DNA from: Hyphomonas sp.
GTDB lineage: Bacteria > Pseudomonadota > Alphaproteobacteria > Caulobacterales > Hyphomonadaceae
Direction of reading: 5' to 3'
DNA: 64,000 nt
NCBI GenBank assembly: GCA_017792365.1
Contig: CP051229.1
Coordinates: 2,170,001 to 2,234,000, forward strand
Shown: one piece after another, positions 14,254 through 53,700 of the stretch
Layout of the letters: the number at the start of each line of letters is the position of its first letter
Numbering within the stretch: position 1 is the stretch's first letter
Program-made: the position numbers and the translations under genes
The notes under the pieces: generated by a model
What the model saw: only the letters and a program-made list of their open reading frames with translations
Database searches by the model: none
Told to the model about the DNA's origin: nothing

Positions 14254-14450
14254 CTGGACCCCAGCCTCCGCTGGGGACGCGTCTCTTCGAGCCGCTTTGT
14301 CCGACCGAGGCGAGACGTGGGTCTCCCGTCCGTAATGAAGCCTGCCAGATATCACGCGCCCTATTGGAAGCCTGACCCTACACACGACCCCAGCGTCCCA
14401 AATGGAAGCGTGACGCTAGTCACGCGTCCCCAGCGGAGGCTGGGGTCCAG
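14254..14450. repeat. long-inverted-repeat element, copy 1 (no ORF)
   Basis: A 29-bp arm at 14254-14282 (CTGGACCCCAGC...GACGCGT) is matched by its exact reverse complement at 14422-14450. Each arm is itself a hairpin (CCCCAGC-CTCC-GCTGGGG). Inside, next to the right arm, is GCGTGAC-GCTA-GTCACGC at 14408-14425. The same architecture recurs at 19660-19806 and, decayed, at 52182-52295. It is followed on its right by a terminator-like hairpin shared by all three copies. Confidence 0.85.
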
Positions 14451-19659: not shown

Positions 19660-19806
19660 CTGGACCCCAGCCTACGCTGGGGACGCGTCTCTTCGAGCCA
19701 CTCTGACGAAAGGACGTCATCACATGTCAGCTCTGTTCGAGTGAGAAGACCTCAGGCCAGGAAGCGTGACGCATGTCACGCGTCCCCAGCGTAGGCTGGG
19801 GTCCAG
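19660..19806. repeat. long-inverted-repeat element, copy 2 (upstream of duplicated ORF)
   Basis: 29-bp left arm at 19660-19688 and its exact reverse complement at 19778-19806. Compared with copy 1 each arm carries a changed triplet (CTACGC instead of CTCCGC), and the change is matched in the opposite arm. GCGTGAC-GCAT-GTCACGC lies next to the right arm. A terminator-like GCCGGGC/GCCCG hairpin follows at about 19813-19830. It fills most of the 403-bp gap between the acylase and the duplicated ORF. Confidence 0.85.
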
Positions 19807-19933
19807 TCCAACAGAAAAAGCCGGGCGCAGCCCGACGATCTGTCCATCAGGAAAACCGGCGAGACGTCCGCCAGAACGGCAAATCCCCAAATCCTGTCCA
19901 ACACCCCACAGCCACCCGCATCATGCCCTGCAC

Positions 19934-20422
19934 ATGAAAACGGCCCCAACATCACAGCACGACCACAACCCGACGCTCGACCGCGTCCGGGCGCTGATCG
20001 CGTTGATGCTGCAATTCCTCGAAGACCCCAGCCGACACCTCGACCTCGAACGCCTCTTCGCCGAAGCCGAGCAGCTCCTCGCCCGCCTCACCTTCGAAAC
20101 CGCCGCAAGGATCGCCGGACGCCTAGACCTCCTCGACACCCACGAAGCCTACATCGTCAGCAACAGTCGAACCTTCGAAATCCGCGTCCGCCTGAAACCC
20201 AGCGCACTCCACCCCCACCACCGCATCATCCTCAACCGCCGCCGCACATCGCGCATCGCGCAATACCGCCGCGCCATCGGCCGCCGCACCCGCTTCTCGC
20301 GCAAGCTCACCTACCTCTATTTCCGCAACCAACGCCGCAGCTATGGCGGGCGCTTCGCACGCCACGCAGCAAGCGCCGCCCCAACATCCCACAGCCCATC
20401 CCGCATCGCGGCGCCGCCCTAA
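19934..20422 (+). CDS. uncharacterised basic protein, duplicated cassette ORF copy 1
   Basis: 162 aa; I do not recognise a family. The N-terminal half is predicted helical (NPTLDRVRALIALMLQFLE, LDLERLFAEAEQLLARL), the C-terminal half is very rich in Arg and His (HPHHRIILNRRR, RRAIGRRTRFSRKL, YFRNQRR), which would suit nucleic-acid or phosphate binding. An 80% identical copy of exactly the same length lies at 51592-52080 in the opposite orientation. Similarity extends upstream through ~80 bp of non-coding DNA and the hairpin element, and both have a REP-like palindrome downstream. The start ATG at 19934 aligns in the two copies; there is no clear ribosome site. Confidence 0.6.
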   Translation: MKTAPTSQHDHNPTLDRVRALIALMLQFLEDPSRHLDLERLFAEAEQLLARLTFETAARIAGRLDLLDTHEAYIVSNSRTFEIRVRLKPSALHPHHRIILNRRRTSRIAQYRRAIGRRTRFSRKLTYLYFRNQRRSYGGRFARHAASAAPTSHSPSRIAAPP

Positions 20423-20427
20423 TCACC

Positions 20428-20544
20428 GTCATTCCGGGCGGACCCCGGACTTGATCCGGGGGCAGACCCGGAACCCAGTCCTCGAAGCAACTTCCCATGG
20501 CTGGGTTCCGGATCGGCGCGGCTGCGCCGCTTGTCCGGAATGAC
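20428..20544. repeat. full-length REP-like palindromic repeat
   Basis: 117 bp with terminal inverted repeats GTCATTCCGG and CCGGAATGAC. Internally ACCCGGAACCCAG pairs with CTGGGTTCCGG, and CGGCGCGGCTGCGCCG forms a small hairpin. It starts 6 bp after the duplicated ORF. The closest copy is 51466-51576, which sits in the same place relative to the other ORF copy. The rest of the gap to the M48 gene shows nothing else recognisable. Confidence 0.85.
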
Positions 20545-20737
20545 ACGGCTGTCTGGCAACAGATCGAACACCCCGCCCCCAATGCTCCGCCAGCCACGCT
20601 GCGCGGAGGCGCCGCCGCATCCCCGCCAAATCCGCCTGCATGCGCAACTTTCCAGACCCCTCATGCGCTCTATGATAACTACCAGCAGGCCGGCGCCGAT
20701 GACGGGCGCGCCGCGCCGCCGCATCAGGAGGGCGATC

Positions 20738-51400: not shown

Positions 51401-51465
51401 GCGCGCGCCGGCGCCTCCGTGCAGCGTTGCTGGCGGAGTGTTTGTTCTGGTTGTCAGACAACGGC

Positions 51466-51576
51466 GTCATTCCGGGCGGAGGCGCACAGCGCCGCAGACC
51501 CGGAACCCAGTCCTCGAAGTAACTTCGCACCGCTGGGTTCCGGATCGGCGCGGCTGCGCCGCTTGTCCGGAATGAC
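51466..51576. repeat. full-length REP-like palindromic repeat
   Basis: 111 bp, termini GTCATTCCGG/CCGGAATGAC, with the same internal ACCCGGAACCCAG / CTGGGTTCCGG arms and CGGCGCGGCTGCGCCG hairpin as 20428-20544. The left internal block differs (GGCGCACAGCGCCGCAG). It lies 15 bp from the 3' end of the second copy of the duplicated ORF. Confidence 0.85.
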
Positions 51577-51591: not shown

Positions 51592-52080
51592 CTAAGGCGG
51601 CGCCGCGATGCGGGATGGAGTGTGTGCAGGGACAGCGGCGCAGGCCGCGTGGCGCGTGAGGCGCACGCCGTAGCGGCGGCGCTGGTTTCGGAAATAGAGG
51701 TAGGTGAATTTGCGTGAGAAGCGGCTGCGGCGTCCCATGGCGCGGCGGTATTGCGCCATGCGCGAGGCGCGGCGGCGGTTGATGATGATGCGGTGGTGGG
51801 GGTGGAGGGCGCTTGGTTTCAGGCGGACACCGATCTCGAAGCGGCGGCGGTTGCTGACGACGTAGGCTTCGTGGGTTTCGAGAAGGTCGGGGCGGCCGGC
51901 GATCCTTGCTGCGGCTTCGAAGGTGAGGCGGGCGAGGAGCTGTTCGGCTTCGGCGAAGAGGCGCTCGAGTTCGAGATGGCGGGCTGGGTCTTCGAGGAAC
52001 TGGAGCATCAATGCGATCAGCGCCCGGACGCGGTCTAGCGTCGGGTTGTGGTCGTGCTGTGATGTTGGGGCCGTGGTCAT
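51592..52080 (-). CDS. uncharacterised basic protein, duplicated cassette ORF copy 2
   Basis: 162 aa, same length and about 80% identical to 19934-20422. Shared blocks include QHDHNPTLDRVRALIALMLQ, ERLFAEAEQLLARLTFE and RLKPSALHPHHRII; the C-terminus again is Arg/His-rich (RRAMGRRSRFSRKFTYLYFR). Many differences between copies are at third codon positions (for example CTC/CTA, GCG/GCA, CAA/CAG), a pattern that fits a translated, selected ORF, although the upstream non-coding DNA is also well conserved. No known domain recognised. The orientation is opposite to copy 1. Confidence 0.6.
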   Translation of the reverse strand: MTTAPTSQHDHNPTLDRVRALIALMLQFLEDPARHLELERLFAEAEQLLARLTFEAAARIAGRPDLLETHEAYVVSNRRRFEIGVRLKPSALHPHHRIIINRRRASRMAQYRRAMGRRSRFSRKFTYLYFRNQRRRYGVRLTRHAACAAVPAHTPSRIAAPP

Positions 52081-52181
52081 GTGAGGGACATGATGCGGGT
52101 GGGCGTGGGGTGTTGGACAGGATTTGGGGATTTGCTGTTCTGGCGGACGTCTCGCCGGTTTTCCTGATGGACAGATCGTCA

Positions 52182-52295
52182 GGCTGCGCCCGGCTTTTTC
52201 TCATTGGCTGGACCGCCTTCGCTGGGGACGCGACTTTGTCACGCTTCAATTCAAAGCGTCTCAGAGACGCGTCCCCAGCAGAGGCTGGGGTCCGG
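52182..52295. repeat. long-inverted-repeat element, copy 3 (decayed), upstream of ORF copy 2
   Basis: Mirror image of copy 2: the terminator-like GGCTGCGCCCGGCTTTTTC at 52182-52200, then a damaged left arm (GGCTGGACCGCCTTCGCTGG onward, about 52206-52232) and a better right arm (ACGCGTCCCCAGCAGAGGCT onward, 52267-52295). The arms no longer match perfectly. It fills most of the 312-bp space upstream of the ORF copy. Confidence 0.75.
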
Positions 52296-52392
52296 AGGTG
52301 GGGGGTGGGAAGGGGTTGGCGGGGTGAAGCGTCCCCGCTCCCAAAAAACGCCCCCGCGTTTGCGGGCGCTTGGTTGGCGATGACCGATTGCC

Positions 52393-53571
52393 CTACTCGC
52401 CTTCGGCGTCGAGGGCTGTGTCGATGCCCATGACCATGCCGCGGAGGAGGAGGGCGTATTGCCTTCGTGGCAGGCGCGTATTCGTGGAGGCGCTCGGACG
52501 TGAGGCGGATCGGCATCTCGCCGCGCCATTCGGAGGTGTAGTTCACCGGGTCGTTGATGGTGAATTCGTAGAACAGCTCCTGATCGGAGACGCGGGTGAA
52601 GCGTTCGGTGGCGACGCCTTCCGCCGAGAGCGGGATGCGGCCATAGGCCTGCAGGTCGTGGAGGTTGCGGGTCCTGACGACGAGCGTGTCGCCTTCCCAC
52701 CAGCCGACCGAATCGCCGAACCATTGCGCGACCTCGTCCGGACGGTGCGAGCATCCTGCGGACCATCGACGATGCGGATGATGCGCGCATCGTGGTTCAT
52801 CTCGATGTTCATCATGATGTGGTCAGGCGATTGCGCGATCTGGATGTGGTTGTTGTACATCGTGTTGGTGATCGGCGGGCCGCCCTGGTTGGAGAACGAG
52901 GTGAGGCACCGATCGCCGATCGTGCGGATTTCCGGCCCGGTATTGTCGGACCCGCGCGCAGCGGACATGCGGGCGGCGCGCGCCTCACGGCCTTCAGCCG
53001 AATACGGGATCTGGCCATCCTCGGGATAGACCACCCATGACGAACGGTATTCGCCGTTGACCTTGCCGTATTCCGAACCGGGATCGATCCAGAACGCATT
53101 GTAGCCGGCGCCGGGATTGCGGTCGGTGAAGGTTCCGGCATCGGGGTCGGTGCGCAGCTGGCTGTCGCGCGCGAGCCTGACGTAGTCGGTCTGGTTGGCG
53201 AAATTCTCGACCTCTTCGGTGGGGATGACGAGCGTCTCGATGTCGGCGCCGGCGCGGCCGCTGGCGCCGCGGGTGAGCGTGGTCAGCGAGGCCGTGGTCC
53301 ACACGCCCTGGAAATCCGGCGCGCCAAAGGCGGTGCGCGGCGGTTCGTAGTTCGGATCCCAGGCGCCGAGGTCGCGGAAATAGGGGACCGGCGAAATGAA
53401 GGCTTCCTCGCCCCCGATCGTCTTCGGTCCTTCGACCGGGCCATCGTCCTTGGCGTAGCCGACGCCCGAGCCCTCGCCGATGCGTTGGGCGTGCGCGGAA
53501 AGCGGAGCCGCGAGCGCCAGTGCGCAGGCGGCGATGACGAGGCGCAAGCCTGCCCTGCCGGGTCTGATCAT
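52393..53571 (-). CDS. exported protein of unknown function, frameshifted in the C-terminal part
   Basis: Start ATG 53571 with GGGAGGAA; Sec signal LVIAACALALAAPLSAHAQ. The first ~275 codons are one frame (AFGAPDFQGVWTTASLTTLT, YNAFWIDPGSEYGKVNGEYR, MYNNHIQIAQSPDHIMMNIE). A base is lost at ~52740; the next frame gives VNDPVNYTSEW-like sequence and MPIRLTSERLHEY; two further indels at ~52475 and ~52459 are needed to read CHEGNYALLLRGMVMGIDTA up to the TAG at 52393. Net change is zero mod 3; reconstructed length 392 aa. The PDFQGVW start and EYACHEGNY end are typical of an alphaproteobacterial secreted family without known function. Confidence 0.75.
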
Positions 53572-53700
53572 GATTGGTTCCTCCCAGAACGTCGTTTTGA
53601 CTATAGAGCCGCAGATTTGCCGCCCTGCCAATGGCGCTCTCAAAGCATTGATGCCGACGACGTGGATCGCCCTACCGTAAGCGGAAGGCGCGGCCTGTCC

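Follow-up and report, generated by a model that had tools for sequence, protein, structure and literature searches.

Seven copies of a small gene for an arginine-rich protein, dispersed among REP palindromes in one Hyphomonas genome

The 64,000-nucleotide stretch of Hyphomonas DNA analysed here (the window) carries a repeated unit in which inverted repeats and a terminator-like hairpin surround a small reading frame, which raises the question of whether such a unit is an element that moves itself or a gene of the host that lies among repeats. A sequence-only reading of the window had taken the unit at 19660-20544 for a mobile or amplifying cassette of which the protein may bind the hairpins. 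Every part that it described there, including the 162-codon ORF and the REP-like palindrome, is present, and so are the second copy in opposite orientation and the ORF-less third hairpin element near 14254, which consists of a repeat that we call REP-A together with a terminator-like hairpin (Table 1). The two ORFs of the window, copies A and B, are indeed of equal length, and their identity, put at about 80% by that reading, is 85% for the proteins and 83% for the cassette DNA. The likeness that it had noticed in the DNA before the ORFs amounts to 94% identity over the 110 nt that precede them.

Table 1. Features of the repeated unit in the window and ORF positions of all copies in the genome (window positions unless marked otherwise).
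Feature	Position	Strand	Remark
ORF-less REP-A with terminator-like hairpin	14254-14450, hairpin to about 14479	none	not a cassette
Copy A REP-A, two 29-bp inverted arms	19660-19806 (arms 19660-19688, 19778-19806)	none	arms 100% complementary
Copy A terminator-like hairpin with T-run	about 19806-19836	-	fold -12.2 kcal/mol
Copy A promoter-like motif	19894-19924	+	ends 9 nt before ATG
Copy A ORF	19934-20422 (genome 2,189,934)	+	162 aa, pI 11.6
Copy A REP-B palindrome	20426-20544	none	fits a CGTC-tagged head-to-head dimer as described in the available part of the text of PMC3733652
Copy A 3' hairpin of the unit	20585-20614	+	
Copy B 3' hairpin	51409-51438	-	8 nt after pheT stop codon
Copy B REP-B	51465-51576	none	inverted relative to the other five copies
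Copy B ORF	51592-52080 (genome 2,221,595)	-	162 aa
Copy B promoter-like motif	52090-52120	-	
Copy B terminator-like hairpin with T-run	52178-52199	+	by inspection
Copy B REP-A, shorter form	52215-52285	none	
Copy C ORF	genome 533,576	-	
Copy D ORF	genome 379,153	+	
Copy E ORF	genome 3,080,502	-	
Copy F ORF	genome 1,082,645	+	
Copy G ORF (diverged seventh)	genome 2,965,292	-	

The repetition extends well beyond the window, and the count of two copies did not survive: a protein query finds seven ORF copies in the 3,398,407-bp genome, none of them with an internal stop. Six are 82-100% identical to the query in protein sequence and the seventh, copy G, is 50% identical. At the DNA level the 885-bp window stretch has six cassette-length matches in the genome including itself, the other five being 83-87% identical. 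Neither the DNA nor the protein query matches held a recognisable decayed or ORF-less copy of the core unit. A weak protein match at genome position 1,734,577 (E 0.037, one stop) falls in an unrelated ORF and was rejected as a further copy.

Six copies share one order of parts: at least the right part of REP-A, the hairpin with its T-run, about 100 nt, the ORF, the palindrome that we call REP-B, and a stretch that ends in a hairpin. This last hairpin was absent from the earlier reading and is part of the unit, as its pattern, with up to three mismatches allowed, has five matches in the genome, all of them at cassettes (A, B, C, E and F); copies D and G carry more diverged forms. The terminator-like hairpin of copy A is oriented so as to act on transcripts arriving from the ORF side. 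Copy G possesses the promoter, the ORF and the 3' hairpin without REP-A, terminator or REP-B, and these three parts thus define the core unit. When the two termini of the shared unit were compared, as one would the ends of an insertion sequence, they proved unlike each other.

Is the reading frame a gene at all? No indel interrupts the alignment of the six alike ORFs, their variable sites fall 35/23/74 on the three codon positions, and the summed pN/pS is 0.36, with 15 pairwise dN/dS values of 0.22-0.50 and a dS of 0.20-0.40 for every pair. Constraint is strongest in residues 14-135 (ratios 0.27 and 0.20) and weakest in the first 13 and last 27 residues (0.89 and 0.57). The other five frames give pN/pS values of 0.44, 1.07, 1.52, 2.35 and 2.45, and the frame with 0.44 lies on the minus strand and holds 4-6 stops in each copy. 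The absence of indels together with the low pN/pS means that the protein is selected, and the reading frame is accordingly a genuine gene rather than a side effect of GC-rich repeats. The dN/dS check proposed with the sequence-only reading, for which a value near 1 would have pointed to a decaying duplication of just two copies without empty sites, thus came out well below 1. Passive duplication by recombination at flanking repeats, leaving functionless copies, would agree with the dispersed REP-A and REP-B that flank six of the seven copies, but it is quite improbable in view of these ratios and of the intact alignment, and it would account neither for a 3' hairpin that lies beyond REP-B nor for copy G, which has no flanking repeats. 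Selection has a limit as an argument for a host gene family, since it would also show on the transposase of an element.

The copies do not seem to have evolved independently of one another. Among 86 informative two-state sites of the six-copy unit, nearby sites are less often incompatible than after permutation, with none of 1000 site permutations as low as the observed value at any of the distances 30, 60 and 100 nt, which indicates that segments of the unit have different histories. Inside the ORF alone (47 sites) the effect is not significant (108 and 170 of 1000). The identity of A and B likewise changes along the unit, from 94% in the 110 nt before the ORF to 82% over the final third of the ORF and 61% downstream of it; the inverted REP-B of copy B lowers this third value. 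These patterns are suggestive of gene conversion among the copies.

All copies are intergenic and unlinked, and each has different neighbours. Gene-level empty sites, which the sequence-only reading had proposed to look for, exist in other genera for three of the seven (B, C and F). At the site of copy B, pheT and the next gene are adjacent in two of 29 pheT loci of relatives (G007 and G020), and in G007 only 25 nt separate the converging stop codons, as against 992 nt here. The AsmA-like gene and tyrS that surround copy C are adjacent in one of four relatives examined (G007), whereas in this genome they are 2.8 kb apart, with the cassette and a TPR gene in the interval. For copy F, the popZ-like gene and valS adjoin each other in four of five relatives (G026, G020, G006 and G018, not G007), and here they lie 1.5 kb apart, on either side of the cassette and a VOC-type gene. 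The genes pheT, tyrS and valS are named from NCBIfam; AsmA, popZ and VOC are what we take the other neighbours to be. In the stretches of relatives that were examined, the neighbours of A, D, E and G are not adjacent. Empty sites are no proof of transposition, because any lineage-specific gene that has been gained shows them.

Another idea is that of a non-autonomous cassette moved in trans: a transposase or recombinase that the host has for other reasons would recognise the ends of the unit or the REP dimers and copy the gene along with them. A discrete unit at unlinked sites, closed by a 3' hairpin, is what such movement would leave behind; at copy B that hairpin begins 8 nt past the pheT stop, in the interval that measures 25 nt in G007 and 992 nt here, and REP-B has been inverted in place, the segment at 51465-51576 being 94% identical to 20426-20544 on the opposite strand. 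We nevertheless regard this explanation as rather unlikely: a search for Y1 transposases turned up no enzyme that could act in trans, and copy G lacks the repeats.

The protein itself is 162-164 aa long across the copies, and all seven versions are strongly basic, with a pI of 11.6-11.8 and 16-18% arginine. Conserved residues include the stretches THEAY and LHPxHRII. The absence of an HUH motif (H-hydrophobic-H), stated by the sequence-only reading, holds for all seven proteins, which have HPHH or HPLH only. A search for the Y1 transposase family PF01797 at E 0.001 found nothing in this genome; the control search matched in five of 14 genomes. A Pfam scan of all seven members gave no transposase, and searches of Pfam, NCBIfam, PHROGs (the latter two with the two window copies), PADLOC and the PDB, by sequence and by fold, produced no convincing family or fold; the best weak matches, to phrog_7254 (E 0.046), SnoaL_2 (E 0.017, three of seven members) and PDB 4dad (E 0.067), were set aside. 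AlphaFold2 with the two window copies gives a weak model (pLDDT 67, pTM 0.46) with two N-terminal helices, a beta hairpin and two C-terminal helices, for which Foldseek finds nothing in the PDB better than E 0.51. The weakness of this model leaves the Arg-rich, basic composition as the ground for regarding the protein as probably nucleic-acid-binding.

If the unit were a new type of element that moves itself by means of the 162-aa protein, acting as a transposase or as a hairpin-processing enzyme, this would explain why each unit contains one selected ORF between hairpins, why empty sites exist at the gene level and why residues such as THEAY and LHPxHRII are conserved. Yet the protein resembles no known enzyme, the genome shows no recognisable decayed or ORF-less core copies, which is unusual for an insertion sequence, and the promoter is common with genes that are no such units (see below), all of which makes this reading improbable. 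Of the mobile or amplifying cassette that had been proposed, the dispersed, repeated unit stands, with its seven copies and its empty sites for three of them, and the self-moving element is not supported. Very improbable, in turn, is a selfish or defensive gene (a toxin, an addiction gene or a phage-defence factor) kept in several copies: the gene is small, basic, multi-copy, intergenic and found in this genome alone, but none of the seven members matches PADLOC, and the repeated unit contains no partner gene.

Relatives of the protein were sought over a wide range of genomes. At E 0.001 none of 60 relatives matched; at E 0.01 there were matches in one of 104 other genomes of the family, in eight of 397 from the order, the family match among them, and in six of 384 from the class, with per-genome E values of 1.3e-4 to 0.0075, about the level of chance over so many genomes. 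Twelve of the 14 outside loci were aligned or tried, and ten gave a reported match. All were rejected as homologs: four share a short LADPTRR-like stretch, and several others contain stop codons. The four loci presumably encode ArsR-type regulators. Phages, plasmids and viral contigs gave no match, and neither did genome contigs, which were scanned with two peptide patterns. As judged by sequence similarity, the family is restricted to one genome among all that were searched, a set without a second genome of the genus.

The upstream region tells a different story from the protein. Searched across the whole genome, a promoter pattern made of 12 bases, a gap of 12-15 nt and CATNMT matches eight times, and its reversed control not at all. 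The matches are copies A, B, D, E, F and G, a gene at 500,306-501,112 (the 500-kb gene) and a site at 1,544,681; in copy C the motif is one base off the pattern. The site at 1,544,681 (1,544,681-1,544,711; L121:2682-2712) is a full match with no family ORF seen behind it and is perhaps a remnant or a short RNA. When the pattern is relaxed and extended to the start codon, it again has eight matches, within 200,656 bases of the genome, against none for the control: the same six copies, the 500-kb gene, and a paralog of that gene at 3,170,473-3,171,228. As 6-9 nt separate the end of the motif from the ATG, the mRNA of the cassette is probably leaderless.

The 500-kb gene (L111:3307-4116) and its paralog (L133) are the two members in this genome of a second family, with proteins of 256-269 aa; one member was tested against Pfam and had no match. 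The 500-kb protein has matches in ten of the 104 other family genomes at E 0.01, and several of these relatives, in other genera, have a similar upstream motif by eye. A homology between cassette and second-family proteins, suggested by eye from a DRVR helix, was rejected, with an hhalign probability of 0.1% and scores within the range of shuffled sequences. The 13-sequence alignment used for hhalign left out L128 (four stops) and L135 (no tblastn match), and L134, L138 and L139 repeat proteins that it already contains. Either the two families are linked by their regulation, or it is just their upstream regions that have an origin in common.

Four of the seven copies (B, C, D and F) have a gene for an aminoacyl-tRNA synthetase no more than about 2.1 kb away (pheT, tyrS, metG and valS, as named by NCBIfam), and aspS lies about 2.2 kb from the 500-kb gene. 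There is no synthetase among the ten ORFs scanned around copies E and G; the observation was made post hoc, with the surroundings of copy A scanned in part. The gene beside copy B (52370-53643, minus strand) has an interrupted reading frame and is a pseudogene or reflects a sequencing error, and a full-length gene that resembles a homolog of it adjoins the 500-kb gene.

What, then, are the repeats around the gene? REP-A and REP-B are repeated throughout the genome: tens of partial matches lie elsewhere than at the copies, also where there is no ORF. By inspection of 20426-20544 and 51465-51576, REP-B is bounded on the outside by CGTC (or TGTC) and has a stem starting with AT, a CCA-like tail and a head-to-head pairing; it fits CGTC-tagged REP dimers as these are described in the available part of the text of PMC3733652, against which, and not against the consensus figure, the class was assigned. 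According to the same part of that source, CGTC-tagged REPs predominate in alpha-Proteobacteria and apparently do without a dedicated transposase, no associated transposase genes having been reported. The arms of REP-A carry CGTC at their inner ends, but as AT is missing from the beginning of their stems, this repeat was left out of the class. At two places, upstream of copy F (L022) and at L109:480-515, the right arm of REP-A is broken by a different dispersed repeat, TCATCCTGAGC...TCGAAGGA, which suggests that repeats insert into each other here. A literature search found nothing on REPs in Caulobacterales or Hyphomonadaceae, nor on leaderless promoters in Hyphomonadaceae.

In one relative (G124) a REP of the same general form as REP-B lies upstream of a second-family gene (L124), and no cassette homolog was found in that genome, from which we conclude that REP-B does not depend on the cassette protein. 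The proposal that the protein binds the hairpins is thus not supported: the hairpins occur at many places without the ORF, copy G has the gene without the REPs, and G124 has a similar REP but no cassette homolog that was found. That the protein might nonetheless be a mobilising or hairpin-binding factor for CGTC REPs, one that represents a new class of enzymes acting on single-strand hairpins without an HUH motif and that copies its own gene as well, is an extremely improbable idea.

The explanation that we favour, tentatively, is a taxon-restricted, dispersed and selected gene family that encodes a basic, probably nucleic-acid-binding protein and lies among REPs. Each copy would be a complete small gene under host regulation, with its own promoter-like motif, ORF and 3' hairpin. 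We speculate that duplicative insertion into intergenic sites spread the unit, which would have had no transposase of its own, and that the REP dimers and the terminator beside an ancestral copy may have been carried along in six of seven cases. The copies probably exchange segments and would be retained for a use that the protein has for the host; most likely the Arg-rich protein binds nucleic acid and acts in a regulon common with the second family. An orphan family of this kind is of interest as no relative was found outside one genome, and yet its members are under selection, exist in several copies and are physically dispersed. What disperses orphan genes of this sort becomes a testable question, and so does the identity of the regulon, as the upstream motif is common with a more widely present family. 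Should the gene be tied to CGTC REPs after all, it would bear on the want of a known transposase for those repeats.

Comparison with known systems sets the cassette apart in several directions. It resembles REPtrons and their RAYTs (REP-associated tyrosine transposases, IS200/IS605-like) in that a small gene sits beside REP palindromes and dimers, but it does not belong to them: the protein has no HUH motif, the genome has no Y1 match, and REP-B is of the CGTC type by inspection, whereas RAYTs are tied to GTAG-type REPs in the available part of PMC3733652. RAYTs are also described as single-copy entities in PMC3116915, in contrast to seven copies in one genome, of which copy G has no REP. The likeness to CGTC-tagged REP dimers concerns the REP-B repeat, not the cassette gene. 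The second family differs in its presence in other genera and in proteins for which homology with the cassette is not supported, and is alike in its upstream motif and in the distance of that motif to the ATG. Closest in kind are the orphan paralogous families, which are likewise found in one genome only with several selected paralogs; the cassette differs from these in being scattered over unlinked sites as a unit of promoter, ORF and hairpin, rather than forming a tandem cluster.
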